DNA of 64,000 bases from Halosolutus halophilus (GTDB lineage Archaea > Halobacteriota > Halobacteria > Halobacteriales > Natrialbaceae), in the NCBI RefSeq assembly GCF_022869805.1, contig NZ_CP094974.1:2108001-2172000 (forward strand). The letters are read 5' to 3'. Of the stretch, positions 989 through 20,842 are shown piece after piece. The position numbers were made by a program, and so were the translations under genes. The notes below the pieces were generated by a model, which was not told the origin of the DNA, ran no database searches, and saw only the letters and a program-made list of their open reading frames with translations. How positions within the stretch are numbered: the first letter of the stretch is position 1; each line of letters begins with the position of its first letter.

Positions 989-3562
989 CTAGTTAAGAAT
1001 AGCGTCTAAGAGATCAACTGAAAGAACTTTGTCGAGATTACGATTCGCATTTCCACAATGCGGCGAATGGATACATGAGGGGCAGCCCTCCTCGCAACTA
1101 CACCCTTTTACAAGCTCCAATGTTTGCTCGAGTAACCCTTCCAACTGTTCATACGCACTTGCAGAATATCCTGCACCTCCAGGATAGATATCATGGACAA
1201 AGATCGTTCCTCGCACCGTCTGTGGATGAGCTACGATCGATAATCCACCGATATCTGCCCGGTCGCAAAGTACCTCACGCGGATACAGCGAAATAAGCGC
1301 ATGTTCGATCGCATGAAGGGCACTCAGGTATTCATCCTGTTCTTCAGTTTGCGCAGTGATGGATGCCTCGACTTCTGAGGGAACAGTGAAGAATAATCCC
1401 GTTGTCTCCACCGTCGCCGGAGGCAACGGCTTGTCGAACGTTTGTTCAGCAGGCGACTCATCATTCGGATGCGTGTAATGGAGGTATCCAGTGACTGAAT
1501 CTGCCACCGTCATTCGAGCAAGCGTCTTTTCGAACGCTACACCACCGTAGTCTACTGTTTCCGTGTTTACCGTATCCTCAATAGTTATCTCTTTTTCACG
1601 GAGCGGCCGAGTGTAAGCTGATGTCTCCACTGATTCAAAGTACGCCCGATCGCGCTCTAGATTCAACTCGGCGACTCTGTAAGACTGCTTCTGGTGGGTA
1701 TAGATGGCGTCAGGGTGAGCATCTCGCAGCGCTGCGCTATATTCGAGCGTCCCAAGGTGTTCGTCACGATTGCGGTCAATAAGCGTAATCTCACGCTCGT
1801 CGATACTTCGAATGTTCGTCTCCCACTGGACATTATCTTCAACAGCATTCCATCGGATCCGATCACCATCAACACGCCGGAGTCGCTCGGTTGCTTCGAG
1901 GTCGGTCACTATAGAAGGAAGATCCGGTCCGAAGTACTCTTCGTCATCTGGCGAGAGATAATGGTCTGAAGCAGCACAAACGACGTGATCGGGAAGGATC
2001 GCATCGTTCGAGGGATTGACCGTAGCTTGTTCAGCTCCGCTCTCGAACAGTTGACTTGGATCACGCAACAGATACTGATCTAATGGATTATCAGCTCCAA
2101 CCAGTACAACCAGACACGAGTCCTCGCCGCGGCCGGCCCGGCCTGCTCGCTGGAATGTACTCATCGACGTTCCCGGGTACCCATCGAGTAACACTACATC
2201 GAGCGTTCCGATGTCGATCCCGAGTTCAAGTGCGTTCGTACTCCAGACTCCACGTGCCTCTCCCTTTCGGAGGGCCATCTCGAGTTCTTGCCGACGTTCG
2301 CCGTCAAGAGCGGCGTGATAAGCGTAGATATCGTCAGCGAGGTCGTGATGACCCCACGACCGGAGTTCCTTGTCGGCCCAGTTCGCGTACTGCTCAGCCC
2401 CCTGTCGGGCCGATGTGAACACGAGCGTCTGATAGCCTCGTGCAACGAGGTCGCAGAACAGCCGTACTGACTCGATATGTTGTGAACGCCGTTCACCGCC
2501 GGCGACTTCGTCGTGGTGAGAAACGGTGCGTTCGTCTGGCCCAACTACAGATTGTCCAGCTGGTGGGGAAATTGGACTGGCCTGTCGGTTGTCGGTGTTC
2601 GATCGTGAGTGACTGTCCTCTTGGGAACCATTCGTCGAAGCCGCGATAGCGATAGGAGACTCTTCATTGTGACCAGCTTGAATCTCTCCATCAGGATCGA
2701 CGGCTGGATCGTCAATTGAGGCAGAGTCATTGGTCTCCTCTTTCAACGGCGGATTCCAGAATAGCCAGTGACGGTCGCCGGACGCACTCCGATCGTCGTT
2801 GACGAGTGTGAACGAATCCTCTGGTTGGGCCGTAACAGCTGCTGCATGTTCAACCGGATTTCCAATCGTCGCCGAACAACAAACGTACTCCGGATCCGTA
2901 TCGTAATGATCCAACAGTCGGTTCAGTCGCCGAAGGACCAGAGAAGCGTGACTTCCGAAGTAGCCCCGATACATATGGACCTCGTCGAGGACAACTGTCT
3001 CTAACTGCTGAAACAGCCACCGCCAGTGATTGTGTCCATGAGCAAACGGGATGAGACTTAGGTGAATCTGGTCGATAGTCGTCAGGAGAACGTCTGGTTG
3101 CCGCTGCTTGATAGCTCGTCGTTCGGACGTTTCTGTTTCGCCGGTCTGGACAGCAATATCAACGCTCTCACCAAACCTAAGTTCGCTAGTGACCTCACGA
3201 AAGGTCTGCTCCTGATCATTGATGAGGGCGCGATAGGGGGCAACGTAGAGTGTTTTTCCCGCTCCTTCGAGGCCGCGTTCGAGCGCTGGTACAGTGTACG
3301 TTAGCGTCTTTCCGGACGCAGTCGGTGTCGCAACTACGGTGTTGTACCCCTCTCGAACTGCCTGGATCGCTCGAACCTGATGCGTGTAAAGATTAGAGAT
3401 ACCCCTCTGCTCGAGTGCAGTCGCTACCGGTGGTTCGATCTCGAGGTCGTCTGTCGTAGCTTCCTGACCGTCAACGATCTCATGGTGAACGATCTGGTCG
3501 GAATAATAGCCTCGATCCTGGAGCCAAGAAATCATCTCCTCAATATCAGGCCGCTGGTCCAT
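989..3562 (-). CDS. Hrq1/MrfA-type DEAD/DEAH-box helicase with C-terminal cysteine cluster
   Basis: This 857-residue superfamily 2 helicase has a Walker A motif around residues 80-86 (Lys85 in PTASGKT), a DEVH box at 193-196, and a RecA2 domain with LVFTSARQ and QRAGRAGR motifs. The C-terminus carries the DUF1998-type cysteine cluster (C821, C823, C827, C830, with C836 nearby), as in bacterial MrfA and eukaryotic Hrq1, which unwind 3' to 5' in DNA repair. Residues of roughly 275-365 form an acidic, low-complexity insert between the two helicase lobes, probably a halophilic loop. The gene lies 215 bases after the Argonaute stop on the same strand and before the FEN-1-like nuclease, so the three may be co-transcribed. 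A role in opening DNA for those nucleases is inferred. Confidence 0.9.
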   Translation of the reverse strand: MDQRPDIEEMISWLQDRGYYSDQIVHHEIVDGQEATTDDLEIEPPVATALEQRGISNLYTHQVRAIQAVREGYNTVVATPTASGKTLTYTVPALERGLEGAGKTLYVAPYRALINDQEQTFREVTSELRFGESVDIAVQTGETETSERRAIKQRQPDVLLTTIDQIHLSLIPFAHGHNHWRWLFQQLETVVLDEVHMYRGYFGSHASLVLRRLNRLLDHYDTDPEYVCCSATIGNPVEHAAAVTAQPEDSFTLVNDDRSASGDRHWLFWNPPLKEETNDSASIDDPAVDPDGEIQAGHNEESPIAIAASTNGSQEDSHSRSNTDNRQASPISPPAGQSVVGPDERTVSHHDEVAGGERRSQHIESVRLFCDLVARGYQTLVFTSARQGAEQYANWADKELRSWGHHDLADDIYAYHAALDGERRQELEMALRKGEARGVWSTNALELGIDIGTLDVVLLDGYPGTSMSTFQRAGRAGRGEDSCLVVLVGADNPLDQYLLRDPSQLFESGAEQATVNPSNDAILPDHVVCAASDHYLSPDDEEYFGPDLPSIVTDLEATERLRRVDGDRIRWNAVEDNVQWETNIRSIDEREITLIDRNRDEHLGTLEYSAALRDAHPDAIYTHQKQSYRVAELNLERDRAYFESVETSAYTRPLREKEITIEDTVNTETVDYGGVAFEKTLARMTVADSVTGYLHYTHPNDESPAEQTFDKPLPPATVETTGLFFTVPSEVEASITAQTEEQDEYLSALHAIEHALISLYPREVLCDRADIGGLSIVAHPQTVRGTIFVHDIYPGGAGYSASAYEQLEGLLEQTLELVKGCSCEEGCPSCIHSPHCGNANRNLDKVLSVDLLDAILN

Positions 3563-6727: not shown

Positions 6728-9013
6728 ATGGAGATTTCTTATGAGCATGCGAATCCGAGGGCGGGCAACGAGTCGTTTCTTCTTCGGATCGAGCAAGAAT
6801 GCAAGCTGCGGACTCCTTGTATTCTCGTGGATGCGGGAGACGGTGTCGACACATCGACGCTACTCGGTGACGACGAATACTTGGCAGCGATACTCCTCAC
6901 GCACGCGCACCTCGATCACTACCAATCGCTGGACGAAGCCCATCGTGACGGCGCACCGATTTTCACATCTCCCGGAACGGCAGCGATTCTCGAGGACGTC
7001 TTAGCAGAGGGTGCACGGCATCATTCGATGTCAGATACGGACACGATACTCGAGCGCGTCGAAGCGATCGACGACTGGGTCGACGTCGTCGGTGATGACA
7101 TCAGCGTGGCCCCCGTGCCAGCGGGGCATACGCCAGGAGCGTGCGGATTCCTGATTCGAGCCCGTGATAGCCAAGAGAGTTTCCGTGCGCTCGCTACCGG
7201 AGACTTCACACGACGCGAGGCTGGCGGATACGTCGGATTCGATCCAGAGCAGTTCCTCGAGGTCGATGCACTGTTCCTCACGGCCGCGACGAACGATGGC
7301 GTCGACGAGACGATCACGGGTATCGTCGAAACGCTCGCCGCTCGTGCGAACGCCGGATCGAAGACGCTCTGTACGGCAAGCGGGCTGACTGGCGTTCATC
7401 TGGCGACGCTTCTCGGTTCGATCGAGCACGAACTCGATTACGCGATCCCAGTTACCCTCGTCGGACAGGTCGCGAAACTCTACGATGCGCTGGAATACGA
7501 CTATCCGAACGTAGATACCGTCCCAGAGTTTGCGATTCCTCACGACTGCCTCGAGGAAGGGACCGTAACTATCGCTGGGCCGGAGGTTCCAGTCGAAGGA
7601 AGTAGCGAACGACTCTTCGAGGCGATTCGTGACGACGGGAACGCGACGTTGGTACAGGTACAAGGAGGAACCACGACCGCGAAAGACGCTGGCGATTTCG
7701 CTGGAACCGTTTCGTCGTTCGCGTTCTCGAATCATCCGACTGAAGCGATTCTCGACGAGATCGTCGAAACGATCGCTCCGACTCACGTCGTCGTTTCGCA
7801 CCAGCGTGGCCGATCTCTGGAGCGGTACAAGGACAAGTGGGACGCATATACGTGGGCAACCGGCAGTTCCGGGACGGAGCAGCTGTATCTAGATGGAAGC
7901 TTCTGTGCCCCGGGTTGGATCGGCGATGCCACGAAGCGACGCGTGCGCAATCGCGACAAGCAACGAAGTACGATCGACCTCGGAGACGGAGTCCTGCAAG
8001 CAGCAGCGAGTGTTCCGAAACTCGAGCGGCGAGAAACGGCCGACCTCGAACGAGAAGGTGTCGATGTCGCTCGACTCCGTGAAGAACTCCATATCGGGCA
8101 CAGCGAAGAGGCAATGGCGACTACTACCGTGGAGCCCGAAGCGGAGACAGATACCACGCAGAACGCACGCGGCGCTCCTGTTTGTGTGACCGATGGGGGA
8201 TTGTATCGAACCGTTGGCCAGCCATCCAGTGACAATAAACACATCACACCAGATCCGACAGAGGTAGCTGACGAAATCGCTAATCCGACCGTCATCAACG
8301 TGTTGTGCGACTCGGCGTCAGCGGAGAGCGATACCTCCCCGGACGAGACTACTGCCGAACGGACACCGAAAGCCGATACGAAGGAAACCGGCGGAAAAGA
8401 AACCAACGGCGGTGAAGAGGATGAATCCGCTACCGCGACGGAAACCGCCGACGAAACGACGGAGATCTCGTACACGGAACGAACTGGGAGCGAGGCCGAG
8501 GACGAGGAGACGTCAGATTCGGATTCGACAATGAGTGAAACCACGACTGAGGAGGCGACAGGAACGGTGACCGACGAACCAGTAACTGAAACCGTTCGAA
8601 TCGATCCCGCGATTCGAACACTCGCCGAACATCGCGCTAGTAGCGAGGGCGAATCGACCGAATCGTTCGTCGAGTCGGCAGTCAGAACATACCTCGCGGA
8701 AGCGCTGCGCGGCAACGAACCGTGGTCCGAAACGGCAGGAGTCACCGAACGAGAACTCACGATCGATGCCGATCCAGCACTCGAGAAGCTCATCGCAACT
8801 ACTGCTGCGAACGACGACACATCGGACGCGGAGTCCTTCGTCGTCCGGACGCTCTGCGATGCGATCGGTCTCGACGTCGATGATCGCGAGCTACCGGTTC
8901 GTGCCCTCGAGGAAATGGATGAACTCATCGTCGCGACGACCGAGAACGAGAACTGTCCCCACGAAACGACGGACGAAGTCGTTCAGGCGGCTCTCGAGCG
9001 ACGAGTCTTGTAA
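6728..9013 (+). CDS. Beta-CASP-like metallo-beta-lactamase protein with RHH-like tail
   Basis: The 761-residue protein begins with a metallo-beta-lactamase fold: the zinc motif THAHLDH (His59, His61, Asp63, His64), His134 (AGHTPG) and Asp159 (TGDF). A region of about 175-400 resembles the beta-CASP cap of nucleic-acid-cutting members and ends with a VVSHQ motif. A long acidic low-complexity linker (about 470-630) follows. The last 120 residues hold three segments of about 40 residues shaped like ribbon-helix-helix domains: a short strand, a helix with A-L/M-x-x-L, then F-V-x-x-A/T-L. This suggests an RNA or DNA nuclease tethered to DNA or to partners. It is the first large gene of the rightward set, with 90 bases before the ATPase. 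Nuclease activity rests on family features and is not proven; hydrolase-only members exist. Confidence 0.8.
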   Translation: MEISYEHANPRAGNESFLLRIEQECKLRTPCILVDAGDGVDTSTLLGDDEYLAAILLTHAHLDHYQSLDEAHRDGAPIFTSPGTAAILEDVLAEGARHHSMSDTDTILERVEAIDDWVDVVGDDISVAPVPAGHTPGACGFLIRARDSQESFRALATGDFTRREAGGYVGFDPEQFLEVDALFLTAATNDGVDETITGIVETLAARANAGSKTLCTASGLTGVHLATLLGSIEHELDYAIPVTLVGQVAKLYDALEYDYPNVDTVPEFAIPHDCLEEGTVTIAGPEVPVEGSSERLFEAIRDDGNATLVQVQGGTTTAKDAGDFAGTVSSFAFSNHPTEAILDEIVETIAPTHVVVSHQRGRSLERYKDKWDAYTWATGSSGTEQLYLDGSFCAPGWIGDATKRRVRNRDKQRSTIDLGDGVLQAAASVPKLERRETADLEREGVDVARLREELHIGHSEEAMATTTVEPEAETDTTQNARGAPVCVTDGGLYRTVGQPSSDNKHITPDPTEVADEIANPTVINVLCDSASAESDTSPDETTAERTPKADTKETGGKETNGGEEDESATATETADETTEISYTERTGSEAEDEETSDSDSTMSETTTEEATGTVTDEPVTETVRIDPAIRTLAEHRASSEGESTESFVESAVRTYLAEALRGNEPWSETAGVTERELTIDADPALEKLIATTAANDDTSDAESFVVRTLCDAIGLDVDDRELPVRALEEMDELIVATTENENCPHETTDEVVQAALERRVL

Positions 9014-9103: not shown

Positions 9104-10792
9104 ATGACCGACGCAGGTAGTGAAGAGGAGTTTATCGCCGACGCCAAGCGCCACAACGAGTGGTGGAGCGAGGATCGACCGGCGACAGTCGTGGAAGCTG
9201 CCTCACTCACTCCGCGTTCCGACTTTCACCAACTTCTCAAAACGGTTGACGAAGCGCGACAAAACGGCACGGAGAATCTCGTCTACCAGATCTACGGACA
9301 GACCGGGATCGGAAAGACGACGCTCTTCCAGCAGCTCATCGCGGCACTGCTGGACACGACCGACTTTCCGGAAGGCGGACGCGATCACGAAATCGTCGGA
9401 TCGGTATCGCCACGTCAGATACTATATGTCCCACTCGAAGCGTCCCTCTATCACTTAGAGCGCCCAGACGATGCGATTACACGGTTGAAGCAAGTCGTAG
9501 ACTACTTCGACTCACACGTTGCTCCGCGGCGAGGTCGAAAGTACATACTCCTGGACGACGTCGGTGCGCTCAATCTCGAGGAAGACGAACGCGATGAGCT
9601 TCTCGATCTTGTAAACCAACGAACGTATCTGTTTCTCACGGGGATCGTCGCTTCGCAAGTCGATCTCAAGACGGGATCGGATGCCGACGAAATAGACGCG
9701 TTCGAAGGCCCCACACCAGTACTCCCGATGAAATTCGTCGATACGGTTCAACATCGTGCCGCCGAGGGCGGATTCCAGGTAGATTTCGGCTCCGAATTCC
9801 GGGAGCGGCTCGAAGCATATCAGTCGGACGGATTACCCGGACCGGCACCGATCAAGGCTGTTCGACGGTCGCTCGATTTGAGAGACGGTGGAGCCAGTAT
9901 CGATGACGCGATCGCGTCCCTCGACGAGCTCTATTTCGAACACCTCTCACCGAGTCAGCGAGACGATCTCCACGATGCGTCGCGTGAGTACTTGCAGATC
10001 GGTGGGACGGTACACCGCGCTGGTGACGCGTCGGTACGAAATGAACTCACCAAATCACACTTTTTGCTGTATCTATACAAGGAGTTAGCGAAGCACGAAT
10101 CCATTCAAAAGCCCGAAAATCTCCATAAACTCAGTTCGATCGCGGCGAGTCAAGCCGGCGAAGAACTTCGGTACACAGATATCAGTGATCGAATCGGTGT
10201 CGATCGCCGGACGGTCGACAGTTATCTCGAGGCATTGGATGAGGGAATCGCAGTCTCTGAGTCTCACGATTACTCGCTTCGTCGGTATCGGCGAACTCGT
10301 CTCTATCTCCGCAATCCCCGGCACGTTGTTTTGCTCTCACAGCGTCAGGAACACTATGGATTCGAGGAGTACAGTCACGAAAGCACACTCAATCATGAGT
10401 TCGAGTACAAATTAGCCAGAACGGTCGCGTTCGACCATGCGAAGCGTCTCGCGTTCACTGTCGGCGCCTACGACGTCGAATACTGCGAGACGGAGTCCGG
10501 ACTCGTAGATTACGTCCTTCAGCGCGTGGGCCACGTTCTGCCGTTCGTCCTCTCGTACCATCCCTATACAGACGCTGCCGAACAAACCGCGGTCGAATTC
10601 GATCCTTCTGCCGGACAACATACGAAACCCGATAGCGAGGAGCTACAGGACTACAACTACGAAGCACCATGTCGGTTCATCATCACAGATAGTCTTCCGA
10701 AGGACGTACTCGAGCAGGGATCACTACGTGTTTCCCGTGACGATAACGATATCTGCTACCTGCCGTACTGGGTATTCTTACTGATCTGTTGA
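9104..10792 (+). CDS. AAA-type ATPase with winged helix and degenerate nuclease-like tail
   Basis: This 562-residue protein has Walker A GQTGIGKTT (Lys71) and Walker B YILLDD (Asp151, Asp152). A helical lid and a winged-helix region follow (about 345-385, with IGVDRRTVDSYLEAL). The C-terminal third resembles the DUF4143 fold found in COG1373-type ATPases (EYKLA, then a VDYVL strand). In that family the VD-strand is often followed by an E-x-K nuclease-like motif; here the place is taken by PFVLSYHP, so a catalytic nuclease is unlikely. The gene lies between the metallo-beta-lactamase gene and the AddAB-like pair on the same strand. It may act as an ATP-driven switch or loader for the complex; that is inferred. 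The last residues (VFLLIC) are unusually hydrophobic. Confidence 0.8.
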   Translation: MTDAGSEEEFIADAKRHNEWWSEDRPATVVEAASLTPRSDFHQLLKTVDEARQNGTENLVYQIYGQTGIGKTTLFQQLIAALLDTTDFPEGGRDHEIVGSVSPRQILYVPLEASLYHLERPDDAITRLKQVVDYFDSHVAPRRGRKYILLDDVGALNLEEDERDELLDLVNQRTYLFLTGIVASQVDLKTGSDADEIDAFEGPTPVLPMKFVDTVQHRAAEGGFQVDFGSEFRERLEAYQSDGLPGPAPIKAVRRSLDLRDGGASIDDAIASLDELYFEHLSPSQRDDLHDASREYLQIGGTVHRAGDASVRNELTKSHFLLYLYKELAKHESIQKPENLHKLSSIAASQAGEELRYTDISDRIGVDRRTVDSYLEALDEGIAVSESHDYSLRRYRRTRLYLRNPRHVVLLSQRQEHYGFEEYSHESTLNHEFEYKLARTVAFDHAKRLAFTVGAYDVEYCETESGLVDYVLQRVGHVLPFVLSYHPYTDAAEQTAVEFDPSAGQHTKPDSEELQDYNYEAPCRFIITDSLPKDVLEQGSLRVSRDDNDICYLPYWVFLLIC

Positions 10793-10962: not shown

Positions 10963-13623
10963 GTGACATTCAAGCAGTCGAAACCGATCGATCGGCTGTA
11001 TCACGAGGTCGCCGACTACGACCTCGTGATCGTCCCCGACTCGCCGCTCGCAGACGCCCTCAATCGACGCCTCCAACGGCCTCATTTCGGCCCGTTCGCG
11101 ATCACACCGCGACGGCTTGCGACGCGGCGTCGGGAGACCGCGGAGGACCGGACTGCGTTCCTCGAGGTGATCGACAGGACCGAGCTGGGCTGGAAGGAAA
11201 TCGCCTACAGCGTCGGCAACGTCCTCCAGTGCTGGGAGTATCGAGGAAGCGCCGACGCAATCCTCGAGTACGAGGCGTTCGACACGCCAGCGACCAGAAC
11301 CGTCGTCGACATCATTACCTCGCTGCAGACGTCTTCGCGGCTCCTTGCAGACTACGAGATCGACGTCGATAGGGACGAATCGGTCGCAGTCGTTGGCGAA
11401 CGTCAGTTGACGAACCTCGAACGCTCGATTCTTCCCGACGAATACGATTCGATCGACCGATTCACCGAGGACCTATTCGAACTGCCTCCGTTTCGAATCT
11501 TCGAGTCGCCGGCGGCGATCGTTGATGCGGTTCTCGACACCGTCACGCGCGACAATGCGAACAATATCGGGATCGTCCTCGATGCGAGCAGCGAGTATTC
11601 ACCGCTCGTCGAGTCGGCGCTCGAAACGGCTGGGGTTCCGTACTACGGCGGCCCTGGCTTCATGGACAAACGTGACCACCGTGCGTTCGTCCAGTTACTT
11701 CGGTGTACGACGGCCGGATCCGATACCCGCGTTCGCTCCGTAAAGCCACTGCTCTCGTGTCTCGATGCAACGGTGCCCGTCGAGCACGACGAAAAGCGAC
11801 TCACCGACGTCGACGAGCCCGAGATCGATTGGCTGCGCGAGTTCAGCGAGCGTGCGGACACGCTCACCTTCGCGAAGGCGCTCAATGCATACGAGGAACG
11901 CACGGGACGAACGCTCGAGGCGTTCCGCGAGGAACTCGAGCGACTCGGACTACTCGCAGAGTCGATCACGGCCGACGGGATCGATCAACTCGTCTTCTAT
12001 CTGGAGACCTACGAGGTGCCGATCGATCGGGACAACGAGGGGGTCCTGCTGGCGGATGCGAAATCAGCGTCGTTCGTCGACCGACCGGTCGTCTTCTATT
12101 TGGGACTCGACGAAGACTGGACCCACGACTCACCGAACCGGCCATGGGTCGATCGCGACGAGGAGTACGAGCGAAACATCGACGGCTTTCAATCGCTCCT
12201 CCAGAGCGGCGTCGAACGGCACTATCTCGTGCAGGATACGGCCGGTGGCTCACCCGTCACACCGTGTCTGTACTTCGACGAATTGCTCGATAGCGAGTTC
12301 GAACGATTCAGCGATCTCGCGTCGATCCGGCACGCGCGGACGGGGCGAACGACTGGTGACGGCTTTGAACGGGAGCCGCTGGATACAGCCGTCGAACCCG
12401 AACCTGTCGAGACGGTCAGTCAGTCGAGTCTGAACACCTACGCGAACTCTCCGCGAGACTACTGCTTCGGACGACTCGTCGAGACGCCGGATAAGCACTA
12501 TTTCGTCGAAGGGAACATCTTTCACGACTTCGCCGAGTTCGTCGTCAATCATCCCGGGTTCGTCGATGAGACGCGACTCGAGGAAGTTGTCGAGGTCATG
12601 ATTGAAGAAACGCGCGCGTTTCATCGGAGTACCGACCTTGAGACGCAGCGAACGCGATATCGAATCGGCCTCGAGACGATCTGCGAGTACCTCGCGGAAC
12701 ACGCGCCAGTCGACACGGCGTTCCTGACGCCGTCGAGCGGCTGGGGAGCGAATTTCTTCGCGGAATACTTCGATCGACCAGTCGACTCGCCGGTGACCGA
12801 ACGGTGGTTCGAAGACGACGAGCTTCGGCTCAAGGGGAAGATCGATCTCGTGCAGTCACCGACGCAGTTAGTCGATTTCAAGAGCGGGAGTCGAAACGCC
12901 GCGACACAGGTAACGAAACACGCCTCGATCGACGACCCGAGCGACAAGCCGGATTTTCAGGCGTTGTGCTACCTCACGCACTGGCGGCAGCACCAGCCCG
13001 ACGAGGGCCTCGAGTTCACGTTCTGCCACTTCCTCGAAACGCTCGACGACGTCGTTACCGGCAACGGCTCCCTCGAGGACTGTTTGACGACGGTGACGTA
13101 CCATCCGATTGCGTTCGACGAGTTCGTCCAGTCCCGAACGGTCTTCGACGAACTCCGGGACGATGCCGCCAACAAGTGCAATAAGACGTTCTCGAAGACC
13201 GATTACGAGACGTATCTGACCGTCTTCGATACCCACGAGGTTCCGAGAACGCGGGACGCTGACGAGATGACCGACTCCCCCTTCGGCGAGGCGCTCCTCG
13301 AACGACTGATCGACGACGTTGGAGACTACAAGTACGTCAGGAAGGGCTGTACGCAAGCGTTCAGACATCTCTGCAGCTATCGGAAAGAGGGATACTTCGT
13401 CGAAGATCTCGATGAATTCGAACGCTTCGTCGACGAGCAACTCGGGGAATTGAACCGCTACCGTCGCGGCGACGGCCGATTCCCGGTCGAAGGCCGTGCC
13501 GGCGAACCGAACTACCGCTACGTGGACAACCGCGATATGCTTCTCACCGAACCCCGCTCCGCGCGAAACGACTCACAGAATCCGACTGCGACCGGAGCTG
13601 AAGACGCGGAGGTGCAGCGATGA
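10963..13623 (+). CDS. AddB-like protein: inactive helicase fold plus PD-(D/E)XK nuclease
   Basis: The 886-residue protein starts with GTG at 10963. No Walker A motif is seen, yet the middle follows the superfamily 1 helicase order seen in AddB: a strand-helix motif at about 200-235 (GIVLDASSEY, then GVPYYGGP) and a VVFYLGLDEDW segment near 385. The C-terminal part is a RecB/Cas4-type nuclease: His521 (GNIFHDF), Asp628 (GKIDLV), Asp638 and Lys640 (VDFKSG), then a QALCY segment. I did not see the iron-sulphur cysteine pattern of AddB clearly. The gene overlaps the next one by four bases (ATGA), so the products are probably made together as a heterodimer. AddAB/RecBCD-type enzymes unwind and digest DNA from double-strand ends. 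Confidence 0.85.
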   Translation: MTFKQSKPIDRLYHEVADYDLVIVPDSPLADALNRRLQRPHFGPFAITPRRLATRRRETAEDRTAFLEVIDRTELGWKEIAYSVGNVLQCWEYRGSADAILEYEAFDTPATRTVVDIITSLQTSSRLLADYEIDVDRDESVAVVGERQLTNLERSILPDEYDSIDRFTEDLFELPPFRIFESPAAIVDAVLDTVTRDNANNIGIVLDASSEYSPLVESALETAGVPYYGGPGFMDKRDHRAFVQLLRCTTAGSDTRVRSVKPLLSCLDATVPVEHDEKRLTDVDEPEIDWLREFSERADTLTFAKALNAYEERTGRTLEAFREELERLGLLAESITADGIDQLVFYLETYEVPIDRDNEGVLLADAKSASFVDRPVVFYLGLDEDWTHDSPNRPWVDRDEEYERNIDGFQSLLQSGVERHYLVQDTAGGSPVTPCLYFDELLDSEFERFSDLASIRHARTGRTTGDGFEREPLDTAVEPEPVETVSQSSLNTYANSPRDYCFGRLVETPDKHYFVEGNIFHDFAEFVVNHPGFVDETRLEEVVEVMIEETRAFHRSTDLETQRTRYRIGLETICEYLAEHAPVDTAFLTPSSGWGANFFAEYFDRPVDSPVTERWFEDDELRLKGKIDLVQSPTQLVDFKSGSRNAATQVTKHASIDDPSDKPDFQALCYLTHWRQHQPDEGLEFTFCHFLETLDDVVTGNGSLEDCLTTVTYHPIAFDEFVQSRTVFDELRDDAANKCNKTFSKTDYETYLTVFDTHEVPRTRDADEMTDSPFGEALLERLIDDVGDYKYVRKGCTQAFRHLCSYRKEGYFVEDLDEFERFVDEQLGELNRYRRGDGRFPVEGRAGEPNYRYVDNRDMLLTEPRSARNDSQNPTATGAEDAEVQR

Positions 13624-16499
13624 CGACACCGATCGAAGAGCGGTCAGCAACCGAGACGCCGTCGCCGAACGACCACCAGCGGGAACTCATCGAGAGTACG
13701 GACGGACTGTATCTCGTCGACGCCGGCGCCGGGACCGGGAAGACGTTCACCGTGACCCGGCGCTACGCGAATATCGTCACACAACCCGACGTCGAACCTG
13801 ACGATATCCTCCTGATCACGTTCACGCGCAACGCGGCGACGGAGATGAAAGATCGGATCGTCGCCGAGTGTGACTACGATATGCGGGCACTCAACGACGC
13901 GCCGATTCAGACGTTCCACAGCCTGTGTAACGACATCCTCGATCAACACGGCTTCTATGCGCCCACCTATCTCGGGATCGACGACGCAATCACCGGCTCG
14001 ACGCGGATCCTCGAGAACGAGACCATCGAAGGGGAGTACTTTCAGGAGTTCGTCGATCAGTTCAGCGACGATCACGACGAATACGCCGACCTCCTCCGGT
14101 GTCTCTCCGATCCGACCGAACTGCTCGATCTACTCAACAATCTCGCGTCGAAGGGGATCTTTCCGACCGCAGACGGCTGGTATCGCGATGGCAGGGAGGC
14201 TCTCGAGGGAGATTTCGAGGCGTTCAAGGAGGCATTCGACGAGGTGAATCAGCCGCGAAACGGCGGTAGCAAGCAGTCGACACTACGTTCCCGTCTCGGT
14301 CGCTACGGGAGGAACAAGTGCTACCTGCCCGACGCTCCTGATCGGAGCGAACTCCGCGGCGAGTACGGCTCGAAGGCCGTCCCCGAGGACGTCGCCGAAC
14401 GAGTCTTCACCGAGGACCGCGACCACCTCATCGCGTTCGTCCACGATGTCTACTTCGAGTATCTCGAGTTCGCACTCGGACGGAACTACCTGAACTTCTC
14501 GTTCCTCCAGCTGTTCGCGTTCGTCCTGTGCTGTGAGGACGGCGAGCTCCGCGAGGACCTCGAGTTCGAGTACGTGATGATCGACGAGTTCCAGGACTCG
14601 AGCGAGATCCAGTTCAAACTCGCGTTGCTCCTGTCGGGGACGGACAATTTCTGCGTCGTCGGCGACTGGAAACAGAGCATCTACTCCTTCCAGTACGCGG
14701 CGGTCGAGAACATCACCGAGTTCGAGTCCCGCTTGGAGCGCTTCGCCGGCGAGTTGAATGATGACGCCGACCGGGTAACGTTCCCGCTCGAGCCCGTGAC
14801 GACGATCGAACTCGAGCGGAACTACCGCTCGACGCAGTCGATCCTGGATTTCTCCGAGCACGCGCTCGTGACTCCAGGGAGCAGCAACGAGTCGGTCGAT
14901 CGGGAGTCGGTCCTCGAGGACGTCGTCTCGCTGACCGCGAACACCGACCGTGATCACTCACAGATCGAGGCTCTTCAGCACACCGACGAGCACGAGGCGA
15001 TCCTCACGAAGATCCAAGAGATCGTCGACAACGCCGAGTACGCGGTCGAAGATGACGGCGAGTTGCGGCCGCCGACGTACGGGGATATCGCTGTTCTCAC
15101 TCGAACCCGTGATTTCGGCCGCGAGTTGCTCTCGACGGCCGAGGCGTACGAGTTCCCGATGGCCTACGAGGGCGGGATCGAACTCTTCCGGACCGATCAA
15201 GCCAAACTCCTGCTCGCATGGCTGCGCATCCTCGAGGACGGGTCGGACGCCGAACGGGGCTGGGCAGTCGTGCTCGAGCGCGCCGGCTATACGCTCGACG
15301 AGATCGATCACATCCTCGAACACGCCGCCTATCCCGACGAGATGGAGGCATTTCGCGCCGAACTGTCGACACTCGAGACCCACACGGCGGTCGCTCGGCG
15401 CGTGTTCGATCGCTACGGCTACGACGGGGCGACGGCGGACGTCGTCCTCACGACGGTCCAGTCGATCTATGGGTCGACGACGATGACGCGTGGAGACCTG
15501 ATTTGGATCATCGAACGGGGGACCGAGGACGGATACACCGAGGAAGTACAGGCAGCTGCGGGCGCCGATTCGGTCACCGTCCAGACGGTCCACTCTGTCA
15601 AAGGCCTCGAGTATCCGATCGTGATCTTCGGGAACATGAACAACGGAAAGTTCCCGCCCGGCGGCGGCTCCGAGGGCACGATCATGTACTCCGAGACGAC
15701 TGGGCTCCGCCAGCGGAAGTGTTACGACGACGCCCACGGCGACCCGTACGTCTACGACAACTGGCGAGCCGACGTCCTCCGCAAATGCCGACCAACCGAG
15801 CACGACGAAGAACGGCGCCTCCTCTACGTCGCAATGACGCGGGCGGAAAACCACCTCCTGTTCACAGGGGGCGACGAACCGAACACCTTCCTCGAGGAGT
15901 TGCCAGTTGACGTTGAGTCGCTCGAGCCGGTCGTCTCAGCAGTAGATGTCGATGAGACGAATCAGACGCAACTCGATGTCGACATTCCTGATCCAGCGGG
16001 GCCAGAAGGGTATTCGCCGCACTCGCTGATGGACGACAGTATCTTCGAGGATGTGTCGGGCGGAAGAGGGATGGATTTCGGCTCGCAGGTTCACGAGTTC
16101 GCCGAGGACTACGCACTTGACAAGGACGTAACTCCCGACAGTGACGACGAGAAACACATCGAGGCGTTCCTCGACAGTCTTCCGGGAGAACTGCGCGTCG
16201 AGGAGCGAGCCTACCTCCCGCTCGAAATCGATGGTAAGCAGGTCACGCTCTCAGGTGTGATCGATCTGGTTCACGTGACGGACGACACCGTCGAGATCGT
16301 CGACTTCAAAACGGACCTCACTCGGCATGCTGAGACCGAGTACCGGATCCAACTCAGCGTCTACTACCACGTCCTCGAAGACTGGTTCAGTAATCGGACC
16401 GTCACTGCATCGATCTTCTATACGGCCGAAGACGCTCAAGTAGAGATTGACCCATTATCGGAGGCAGAACTCGCGGCACTCGCTAGCGACCAACGATAA
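13620..16499 (+). CDS. AddA-like UvrD-family helicase with PD-(D/E)XK nuclease
   Basis: The 959-residue protein is a full superfamily 1A helicase: Walker A GAGTGKT (Lys41), TFTRNAATEM, DEFQDSS (Asp322, Glu323), GDWKQSIYSFQ, ERNYRST, TVHSVKGLEYP and LLYVAMTRAENH. A C-terminal RecB-like nuclease follows, with Asp882 (GVIDLV), Asp895 and Lys897 (VDFKTD), and a QLSVYY segment. It is shorter than bacterial AddA (about 1,200 residues). Together with the overlapping AddB-like gene it should form an end-resecting helicase with two nuclease sites. Haloarchaea normally rely on Mre11/Rad50 and HerA/NurA for resection, so this looks like an accessory machine. Only 34 bases separate it from the HNH pseudogene downstream. 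Confidence 0.92.
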   Translation: MTTPIEERSATETPSPNDHQRELIESTDGLYLVDAGAGTGKTFTVTRRYANIVTQPDVEPDDILLITFTRNAATEMKDRIVAECDYDMRALNDAPIQTFHSLCNDILDQHGFYAPTYLGIDDAITGSTRILENETIEGEYFQEFVDQFSDDHDEYADLLRCLSDPTELLDLLNNLASKGIFPTADGWYRDGREALEGDFEAFKEAFDEVNQPRNGGSKQSTLRSRLGRYGRNKCYLPDAPDRSELRGEYGSKAVPEDVAERVFTEDRDHLIAFVHDVYFEYLEFALGRNYLNFSFLQLFAFVLCCEDGELREDLEFEYVMIDEFQDSSEIQFKLALLLSGTDNFCVVGDWKQSIYSFQYAAVENITEFESRLERFAGELNDDADRVTFPLEPVTTIELERNYRSTQSILDFSEHALVTPGSSNESVDRESVLEDVVSLTANTDRDHSQIEALQHTDEHEAILTKIQEIVDNAEYAVEDDGELRPPTYGDIAVLTRTRDFGRELLSTAEAYEFPMAYEGGIELFRTDQAKLLLAWLRILEDGSDAERGWAVVLERAGYTLDEIDHILEHAAYPDEMEAFRAELSTLETHTAVARRVFDRYGYDGATADVVLTTVQSIYGSTTMTRGDLIWIIERGTEDGYTEEVQAAAGADSVTVQTVHSVKGLEYPIVIFGNMNNGKFPPGGGSEGTIMYSETTGLRQRKCYDDAHGDPYVYDNWRADVLRKCRPTEHDEERRLLYVAMTRAENHLLFTGGDEPNTFLEELPVDVESLEPVVSAVDVDETNQTQLDVDIPDPAGPEGYSPHSLMDDSIFEDVSGGRGMDFGSQVHEFAEDYALDKDVTPDSDDEKHIEAFLDSLPGELRVEERAYLPLEIDGKQVTLSGVIDLVHVTDDTVEIVDFKTDLTRHAETEYRIQLSVYYHVLEDWFSNRTVTASIFYTAEDAQVEIDPLSEAELAALASDQR

Positions 16500-16533: not shown

Positions 16534-17523
16534 ATGCCTCTAGGTCGCCTCCGCTCGATCGCCCCGATGTTCGGTTGGGCAACAAGCTATGTCGACACAC
16601 TCGATACAATCATCGACTACGTCGACGAACAGCACCCTACGATGGACGAACTCGTTGGCTGGCATCGCGGGAGTTTCGCCCACGTCTCGAGCCGGGACTC
16701 AATCATGCGCCGCGTCGAGTACCTCGAGGATGTCGGATTTCTCACTGGTGAGAACGGCGTCTGGACACTCGGTCCCGAGGGTGAGCGATACCTCACTGAC
16801 CGCTCGACAGAGACGCTCCTCGAAATCATGTGCCGGTGAAATGTCGGCCTGCGAAGCCTGCTCCATGCGCTCTCAGTTGGGCCGATGCCGATCGACGAAA
16901 TCAGCCGCCAGCAACTCAATACACATCCCGAGATCGGTTGGAATACGGAGAACCCCGACATGGCACTCCAGCGCGTTAACTGGCTGCGAAGTCTCGGCCG
17001 TGTCCAGGAAGACGGCGATCAGTATCGACTCACCGAGGACGGGAGACAGTTCACCGACAACGCTGTCGAGACGTGGGCAGAGACTGCTGCATCAACTGCA
17101 TCCAGTACAGCGGATCCAATGACTGCGGGAACCTACAAGTCGACGGTCAATGCACGAGCTATCGATCCGGAGTTCAGGGCAACTGCATTAGCGAGGTTCG
17201 ACCATACGTGTCCGATCTCAGATGTGGATCATCCAGGGCTACTGGACGTCGCGCACGTCCTCTCGTGGAGCGACTATCCGGAGCACCGAGCTGACTTATC
17301 GAACGTACTGGCACTCAGTAAGACGCATCACGCAGCCTTCGACCAAGAACTCTTCACCATCGATCGGGGCAACCGGCTGCGAGTGAACCCGAATTTCGAT
17401 ACGGAGAGTGACCTGCTACGGCAGACGATTCTTGATCAAGCCGGGGAGCGACTCCCGCTACCAGATGGGTGCGTCGACACGGATTACGTCGCAAAGCATA
17501 ACGCGGCGCTTGCGTGGGTGTAG
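16534..17523 (+). pseudogene. HNH endonuclease with two winged helices, interrupted by in-frame TGA
   Basis: One reading frame runs from the ATG at 16534 to the TAG at 17521, broken only by TGA at 16837-16839. The first part (101 residues) is one winged-helix unit. The part after the stop continues in the same frame with sensible protein sequence, a second winged helix, and a C-terminal HNH nuclease (TCPISD, LLDVAHVLSW, HHAAFD). The two winged helices share a D-E-L/I opening and an R-V-x-x-L-x-x-x-G pattern, so they look duplicated. A single change such as CGA or TGG to TGA explains the break. An internal ATG at 16885 could restart translation and give a 212-residue nuclease. The gene lies 34 bases after the AddA-like gene. 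C-terminal relatives occur at 22.5 and 27.4 kb. Confidence 0.75.
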
Positions 17524-20047: not shown

Positions 20048-20842
20048 ATGTGTTCACAGTACGTTGGGGTTGACTGGTCGTCCGGCGAGTGGGTTTCTAT
20101 AGCGTATACAGACGAGTCGGAGGCCCCATCAGTTGAGGTATTCGAGGCGATCGCGGGAGTTTGGGATCACTACGGCACATCCGCACGCCGCATCGTGGTC
20201 GATGTCCCGATCGGCCTCTGTGAGTCGCTTGAATCAGATGCGTGTTCGTGCGTCGAAGAAGACGGAGAGCTTACCCGACAATGTGACGATCTCGCCAGAA
20301 GCGTCATTGGATCGCAATACAGGTCGGTGTTTACCGCACCGGCACGAGAGGCTGCGACGTTAGCTGTAGCCGGTGCAGATCATAGCGAAATAAGCGACAA
20401 GAACGAAGAACTGACCGGAAAACGGCTGACGCAACAGGCAGCCGGTATCGCAGAGGGAATCGTCGAAGTAGACAACCTGCTCCGGGGCGATGGCGATCCG
20501 GAGGTTCTGGTCGAAGGACATCCGGAAGTGTGCTTTCGTGCACTGAGCGGAACACCACTCGAACACAGCAAACGCACGGCAGCTGGAGTTGCAGAACGAT
20601 TGGCTGTACTCAGGAACGTCGATGAATACACACGTGGCGACTGGCACACGGTTGCTCGAGATCTTGGAAGCAAGGGGCACAGAGTCGCTCTCGATGATGT
20701 GCTAGATGCATTTGCGCTCGCACTCACAGCGTATGCGCCGAAAGAGGAGTTGCATCGACTCCCATCGGACCCCCCTCATGATGCGAAAGGGCTACCGATG
20801 CAAATGGTCTACCGTAGTAAGAGCGAACTCAGTTGTGAGTAG
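20048..20842 (+). CDS. DUF429 family protein
   Basis: The preferred start is the ATG at 20048, which gives MCSQYVGVDW, the usual opening of this RNase H-like family (V-G-V/I-D strand). An upstream in-frame start at 19997 would add 17 residues lacking family features. The protein is about 264 residues, with a second strand VVDVPIGL, an EGHPEVCF motif near the middle, and a final DDVLDAFALALTAY helix. All are typical of DUF429. The family has an RNase H-like fold with conserved acids but no firmly known reaction. It stands alone on the plus strand beside the toxin-antitoxin-like pair. Confidence 0.85.
   Translation: MCSQYVGVDWSSGEWVSIAYTDESEAPSVEVFEAIAGVWDHYGTSARRIVVDVPIGLCESLESDACSCVEEDGELTRQCDDLARSVIGSQYRSVFTAPAREAATLAVAGADHSEISDKNEELTGKRLTQQAAGIAEGIVEVDNLLRGDGDPEVLVEGHPEVCFRALSGTPLEHSKRTAAGVAERLAVLRNVDEYTRGDWHTVARDLGSKGHRVALDDVLDAFALALTAYAPKEELHRLPSDPPHDAKGLPMQMVYRSKSELSCE

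Follow-up and report, generated by a model that had tools for sequence, protein, structure and literature searches.

A probable compact AddAB-type helicase-nuclease pair near an Argonaute gene in a haloarchaeal genome

A described Argonaute system of haloarchaea is APAP, in which a pAgo has a PLD partner and acts on plasmids and on a single-stranded DNA virus. According to the sections of that study available to us, APAP was tested in Haloarcula hispanica and ago genes are present in 63 of 656 haloarchaeal species (PMC11442185). The accessible part of a 2018 listing includes pAgo operons with UvrD/PD-(D/E)XK proteins (PMC6299218), and in E. coli the small DNAs bound by pAgo are shaped by RecBCD and Chi, as stated in the excerpts of the study on which we drew (PMC10269773). 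Our search of the literature outside subscription journals returned no paper joining haloarchaea, Argonaute, and AddAB. A survey of archaeal defence makes no mention of UvrD, and the available part of a review of H. volcanii repair makes none of AddAB (PMC7776575).

Do two overlapping genes that lie a few kilobases from a haloarchaeal Argonaute gene encode an AddAB-type machine, and do they belong with the Argonaute? On the basis of domains, invariant active sites, per-chain fold similarity, and near-constant pairing, we consider it likely that both genes encode a compact AddAB-type helicase-nuclease. We take it to be an accessory DNA-end machine that usually occurs without Argonaute, and the locus to consist of two joined blocks, with functional coupling of the pair to pAgo possible. 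We infer complex formation, polarity, and resection or degradation.

The overlapping genes and the two encoded chains

The window, that is, the whole stretch of 64,000 nucleotides that was analysed, spans positions 2108001 to 2172000 of a single-contig haloarchaeal genome of 5.06 Mb. An initial annotation had proposed that an AddAB-like pair overlaps by four bases and is placed next to Argonaute. The ORF coordinates confirmed the 4-bp overlap (Table 1). A pAgo gene is indeed present in the window, but the adjacency is loose, with 4.6 kb and two genes, for an MBL-fold protein and an ATPase, lying between pAgo and addAB. The MBL-fold, ATPase, addB, and addA genes are co-directional; 90 bp separate the first two and 170 bp the next two, and the last two overlap. 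Homologues of the ATPase, which has a DUF4143-like part and is PDC-S01-like in PADLOC, recur as divergently oriented neighbours of pAgo, in 24 of 51 haloarchaeal pAgo loci. Downstream of pAgo and on its strand, over window positions 989-3562 and a stretch just left of the window (L265 4594-10945), lie genes for the MrfA/YprA-like helicase, for an XPG-like protein of 344 aa, and for a sacsin/NOV_C protein of 1629 aa.

Table 1. Features of the gene pair and its surroundings (window coordinates).
Feature	Position	Strand	Remarks
MrfA/YprA-like helicase, downstream of pAgo	989..3562	-	DEAD, MZB
Long pAgo, 854 aa	3778..6342	-	PADLOC pAgo 1052 bits; DEDD residues D637, E673, D707, D831 conserved
MBL-fold protein, divergent from pAgo	6728..9013	+	Lactamase_B_2; also adjoins pAgo in L084
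ATPase with DUF4143-like part	9104..10792	+	PDC-S01 E 3.9e-14 (PADLOC)
addB-like gene, 886 aa	10963..13623	+	GTG start; motor-dead SF1-helicase-like part and RecB-family nuclease
AddB helicase-like part, ~residues 4-465	10972..12357	+	aligned with UvrD/PcrA/AdnA/AddB helicase parts; without Walker A
AddB PD-(D/E)XK nuclease domain, residues 484-744	12412..13194	+	PDDEXK_1 E 1.2e-13; invariant residues
addA-like gene, 959 aa	13620..16499	+	ATG start; UvrD-type helicase and C-terminal RecB-family nuclease
AddA Walker A segment AGAGTGKT, residues 35-42	13722..13745	+	G36, G38-T42 invariant
AddA PD-(D/E)XK nuclease core, residues 847-938	16158..16433	+	PDDEXK_1 E 2.6e-9
Small ORF, 101 aa, after addA	16534..16839	+	no Pfam match; homologue and HNH near addAB in L099/L044
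HNH endonuclease	16885..17523	+	HNH_2 E 1.9e-11

Both chains carry the D...D-x-K nuclease core that had been claimed for them. Its residues are invariant in alignments of 49 rows, namely G517, H521, E525, E613, D628, D638, K640, Q666, and Y670 in AddB and G821, H825, E829, E861, D882, D895, K897, Q911, and Y915 in AddA, and we take them to be the RecB-family nuclease motif. Reading of the 886-aa AddB sequence revealed no Walker A motif (G-x4-G-K-[ST]), again as proposed, and the motif is present in AddA.

Pfam models for UvrD-helicase (2.4e-48), UvrD_C, and PDDEXK_1 matched AddA. Its structural model (pLDDT 84.0) retrieved AddA chains at Foldseek ranks 1 to 4 (best 4cej_A, E 1.6e-37) and aligned with 3u44_A in VIA at Z 25.8 over 814 residues, the whole-chain rmsd being large (14.1). 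The highest VIA scores went to PcrA/UvrD (Z 31.7) for the helicase part alone, and PcrA was also the best NCBIfam model; the AddA profile matched S. meliloti AddA at an hhalign probability of 99.9%. Neither chain passed the NCBIfam equivalogs addA_Gpos, addA_alphas, addB_Gpos, addB_alphas, or rexB (AddA scored 168 bits against a cut-off of 707.65), and these scores under the cut-offs place the pair as AddAB-type but outside these bacterial equivalogs. Haloarchaea have two further AddA-type lineages besides the compact one. We built a tree from 41 proteins, AddA-type sequences plus controls; it has several long branches and unsure joins between groups. Compact AddA and the split type each formed a clade at 100/100, and the type of loci L262 and L091 formed one at 100/99. 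The L262/L091 type adjoined S. meliloti AddA at 91/87, and the compact clade joined bacterial AddA/RecB and the L262 type at 94/94, an unstarred node on long branches.

The AddB model (pLDDT 79.0, pTM 0.57) retrieved AddB chains at all of Foldseek ranks 1 to 5 (best 3u44_B, E 3.8e-11), and the next ranks went to RecC and AdnA. VIA aligned model residues 5-857 with AddB at Z 17.1 over 669 residues, with a large whole-chain rmsd of 10.1; UvrD tied in Z with a match covering 321 residues. The domains, the motor-dead AddB, and best folds to AddB and AddA over nearly full length bear out the proposed AddAB-like pair. For both chains, the Foldseek/VIA matches to DEAD-box helicases and HelD were set aside as reflecting shared fold only.

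Direct sequence comparison is weak for AddB. An NCBIfam search gave zero hits, the AddB alignment profile had no PDB match with an E of 1 or less, and hhalign of the profile with single Fusobacterium AddB, S. meliloti AddB, E. coli RecC, and core 740-aa protein sequences yielded nothing credible. Five haloarchaeal AddB sequences of the Fe-S type (alignment A8; lengths 1088-1159 aa) form a bridge from compact to bacterial AddB. The compact profile matched that of the Fe-S type over both the helicase-like part and the nuclease (hhalign 94.5%, E 8.4e-8), the A8 profile matched PDB 3u44_B (E 8.4e-6), and the two Fe-S-type proteins scanned, from L262 and L091, matched addB_alphas (50.9 bits) and addB_Gpos. 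Four cysteines are invariant in A8 (C756, C1075, C1078, and C1084, spaced C-...-C-x2-C-x5-C), presumably an Fe-S set. In the 49-row alignment of compact AddB no cysteine is invariant, and only C90, C435, and C739 are nearly so. The set varies across AddB, and it is likewise not apparent in the AddB ORFs of S. meliloti and Fusobacterium.

In the mechanism that we propose, the AddA-like chain would be the sole motor, starting at a DNA end and moving 3'-5' along one strand, and its C-terminal nuclease would cut the strand on which it travels. The AddB-like chain would act as a motor-dead helicase scaffold; it would receive the second strand, which its nuclease would then cut.

Distribution of the compact pair

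Relatives of compact AddB (P0001) were found in 163 of 391 haloarchaeal genomes and in 56 of the 86 genera of the class; 7 of the 163 genomes had weak matches only (E above 1e-100; G034, G073, G145, G266, G011, G181, and G369). The initial annotation had described such heterodimers as typical of bacteria, with haloarchaea using other machines, a view that this distribution and the two additional AddA-type lineages do not support. On the same count, a rare bacterial import was rejected. Relatives were present in 34 plasmid records, and phage records and IMG/VR viral contigs held none. Among 294 genomes sampled from the phylum, 34 matched, two of them outside the haloarchaeal order. A scan of named genomes yielded 80 loci, all haloarchaeal except for one MAG labelled only Euryarchaeota. 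The AddA gene directly follows the AddB gene in 79 of them, with an overlap of 4 bp in 55 and of 8 bp in 17; in the exception (L172) the AddB frame ends early, and no AddA was found there. PADLOC revealed no clear excess of defence families among 119 flanking ORFs from 20 compact loci compared with 120 ORFs from 20 control stretches.

The compact pair is real, common, and, judged by sequence and predicted structure, well supported as a putative AddAB-type machine. It appears to be a widespread Fe-S-free archaeal AddAB, of which we found no description in the literature searched. We regard it as an accessory, patchily distributed haloarchaeal module of chromosomes and plasmids that usually stands alone. 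In Haloterrigena alkaliphila (L035), addB has an internal stop, and immediately behind addA come a 27-residue remnant of the MrfA/YprA-like helicase (20570-20650) and then an IS1595 transposase.

Argonaute genes and DNA-end machines in haloarchaea

Is the Argonaute a regular partner of the compact lineage? With the window pAgo as BLAST query (E 1e-6), none of 122 other compact-AddAB loci, which include the 80 described above, had a long pAgo nearby. A search for distant remnants revealed a short class I pAgo with an REase partner ~5 kb from the compact pair of Halogeometricum pallidum (L120, 20372-22557), a scrap of 27 residues in L042, and weak matches at three more loci (L118, L128, and L172). 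Compact AddB occurred in 20 of 51 pAgo genomes versus 143 of 340 others (p 0.76; lists intersected by hand, with the weak-match genome G181 among the 20). These data reject a pAgo partner as a general rule for the lineage.

The components of the window also occur apart. In a genome taken as Natrinema pellirubrum (G093), the pAgo-MBL-ATPase block shares 84-93% identity with that of the window, and the 9 kb around it contain no AddAB pair; a compact AddAB lies ~22 kb from pAgo on the same contig. In L084 the block adjoins a PLD gene without AddAB directly beside it, and the nearest relative of the pAgo (91%) has a PLD and a ResIII-type helicase alongside. A Natrarchaeobius locus (L099) holds compact AddAB with an HNH gene and no pAgo. 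Because the pAgo block (G093) and AddAB-HNH (L099) each occur separately, the window gives the appearance of two neighbouring blocks, and the AddAB module would have been brought together with the pAgo-MBL-ATPase block upstream of it.

Other AddAB-like lineages are found near Argonaute. Of 391 genomes, 85 matched in a pAgo search; 51 loci were used, four of them truncated contigs or fragments (L257, L266, L269, and L282), and 34 were left out, mostly N-terminal matches of ~100 residues plus the fragments G319/G292. An AddA-like plus an AddB-like gene is present no further than 9 kb from pAgo at 20 of the 51 loci, or 19 of 50 without the window, and such a pair is present in none of 20 control stretches located ~70-100 kb away on compact-AddAB contigs; a second such pair is likewise present in 0 of the 122 compact-AddAB loci. 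Fisher tests gave p 7e-4 against the control stretches and 3.5e-12 against the compact loci, with 13 of the 19 loci belonging to one cassette clade and so not independent. Three AddA lineages are represented. As to the proposal that placement beside Argonaute suggests a specialised use, the neighbour is not conserved within the pair's own lineage, where the 122 loci contain no long and one short pAgo, but the general idea finds some backing in these other lineages.

Elsewhere in the genome of the window, unlinked to the pair, one locus encodes three proteins: a helicase-nuclease of 1159 aa, a PD-(D/E)XK-like protein whose cysteines are clustered, and a protein of 740 aa. When the pAgo search was crossed with a search for the 1159-aa helicase, the two lay 5 kb apart in five genomes. 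All 12 complete loci of one cassette (L245-L256) share the order ATPase, pAgo, PLD, AddB-N-like, PD-(D/E)XK, AddA-like, with the ATPase divergent; the PLD has ~706 aa (one shorter call), the AddB-N-like protein ~686, the PD-(D/E)XK protein ~301, and the AddA-like protein ~1151 aa, and in three loci the ORF caller chose another frame for the PD-(D/E)XK gene. An annotated example, on Salinigranum marinum plasmid NZ_CP100464.1 (L286), lists an AAA ATPase, Piwi, a phospholipase D protein, a "DNA helicase UvrD", a PD-(D/E)XK protein, and an ATP-dependent helicase. In five loci (L260-L262, L270, and L271) pAgo is accompanied by an AddA-like and an AddB-like gene belonging to the L262 type, the AddB-like ORF of L271 having 310 aa at the edge of its stretch, and in L091 PLD, pAgo, AddB, and AddA all lie on one strand. 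On a Haloarcula litorea plasmid (L192), an ATPase gene, split AddAB, a PLD-like gene, and a methyltransferase gene stand together without pAgo.

Machines other than AddAB were also observed. Mre11- and Rad50-like genes occur together in 7 of the 51 loci, Rad50-like genes with or without Mre11 in 12, and Dna2-like genes in 5; the Rad50- and Mre11-like counts, made by BLAST with E 1e-6 as the limit, contain weak hits of 52-130 bits, may be inflated by coiled coils, and leave out L086, which has Metallophos and AAA_27 genes. Any machine (AddA with AddB, Rad50, or Dna2) is near pAgo in 35 of 51 loci, as scored with reference proteins partly picked from pAgo loci and applied equally to the controls. 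In L086, L088, L089, L274-L276, and L278, Mre11- and Rad50-like genes lie near pAgo as if replacing AddAB. A Dna2-like protein with SF1 helicase motifs directly adjoins pAgo in L094 (851-5401, with a weak PDDEXK_1 match) and L095 (12532-17019).

These data are suggestive of a link for haloarchaeal Argonautes in general. We tentatively propose, as a conjecture held at a little below even confidence, that long haloarchaeal Argonautes are composites whose DNA-end machine can be exchanged (AddAB of the split or Fe-S type, Mre11-Rad50-like, or Dna2-like, and here compact AddAB); this machine would make single strands or guides for pAgo to load, or finish breaking down DNA that has been cut. If this is true, the bacterial Argonaute-RecBCD interplay would be built into a haloarchaeal cassette. 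Cassettes with their own AddAB-like machine bear on guide supply and on the attack of double-stranded DNA by catalytically active Argonautes, and they make this question directly testable in a group of organisms for which APAP experiments exist.

Alternative explanations and known systems

Functional coupling of the window pair to its Argonaute is possible because other pAgo cassettes carry their own AddAB machines. The pair could then be a working part of the pAgo system that opens and chops invading DNA ends, feeds strands or guides, or finishes DNA cut by pAgo. The 20 of 51 loci against 0 of 20 controls (p 7e-4), the lack of a second pair in the 122 compact loci, the involvement of three AddA lineages, and the run of MBL, ATPase, addB, and addA genes in one direction (Table 1) are consistent with it. 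So is the reported coprecipitation of AddAB with TtAgo, alongside the shaping of pAgo small DNAs by RecBCD and Chi, although the same excerpts state that RecBCD is not required for the biogenesis of CbAgo small DNAs (PMC10269773). The absence of long pAgo from the 122 other compact loci, the genome co-occurrence at p 0.76, the single clade behind 13 of the 19 supporting loci, and the nearest pAgo relative, with no AddAB pair within 9 kb, all argue against it, and we regard this role as somewhat doubtful.

It is unlikely that the pair is the normal resection machine for double-strand breaks in these archaea. Its AddAB architecture and wide occurrence would fit such a role, as would the reported lack of HerA and NurA in H. 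volcanii (available part of PMC7776575), but 228 of 391 genomes lack the family, among them the two others of the window's genus; it is often plasmid-borne, and in the window's genome it is accompanied by the unlinked AddA-type locus. We give even less credence to a defence pair of the UvrD-Cas4 type with a first chain unrelated to AddB. UvrD-Cas4-like fusions are published in defence contexts (accessible part of PMC5704561), there are weak Cas4 hits, and the AddB nuclease part resembles the Argonaute-associated Cas4 ACE1 (VIA Z 13.7); yet the AddB fold match is full-length, and a profile link leads to haloarchaeal AddB of the Fe-S type. The initial annotation had named a Cas4-type first gene unrelated to AddB as the outcome that would overturn it, and the whole-model AddB match and the profile link point the other way. 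A compact AddAB-type machine joined to a pAgo block remains our preferred reading.

How does this pair compare with known systems? Gabija was rejected, since GajB-like scores stem from the shared helicase only and none of eight genes scanned matched GajA. AdnA and AdnB each carry a motor. The mycobacterial AdnAB resembles the pair in having two nuclease-bearing chains but differs in that the window AddB has no Walker A, and AdnAB membership, which needs motor motifs in both chains, was therefore rejected. APAP shares the pAgo group, the N. pellirubrum APAP pAgo being 91% identical to that of the window; in contrast, the sections available report a neighbouring helicase in some operons and no AddAB (PMC11442185). 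In the window part within 9 kb of pAgo there is no AgaP (PLD).

The split haloarchaeal AddAB of the pAgo-PLD cassettes (L245-L256; NZ_CP100464.1) likewise has a UvrD-PDDEXK AddA-like chain, but its AddA clade stands apart (100/100) and the AddB role is spread over proteins of ~686 aa and ~301 aa, the latter PD-(D/E)XK. Fe-S-type AddAB beside pAgo (L091, L260-L262, and L270), which was sampled only via pAgo loci, also consists of an AddB-like and an AddA-like gene with related AddB profiles, but has its own AddA clade (100/99) and longer AddB proteins with four invariant cysteines. Compared with bacterial AddAB (B. subtilis; 3u44, 4cej), the window chains are shorter (959 and 886 aa versus 1232 and 1166 in the PDB chains), and the window AddB is without the Fe-S cysteine set. 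Bacterial AddAB is nevertheless the top structural match of each chain and shares with the pair its two-chain plan: an AddA that is a Walker A-bearing SF1 helicase with a C-terminal nuclease, an AddB with a motorless helicase-like fold and a nuclease of its own, and, in the compact family, genes paired in 79 of 80 loci.
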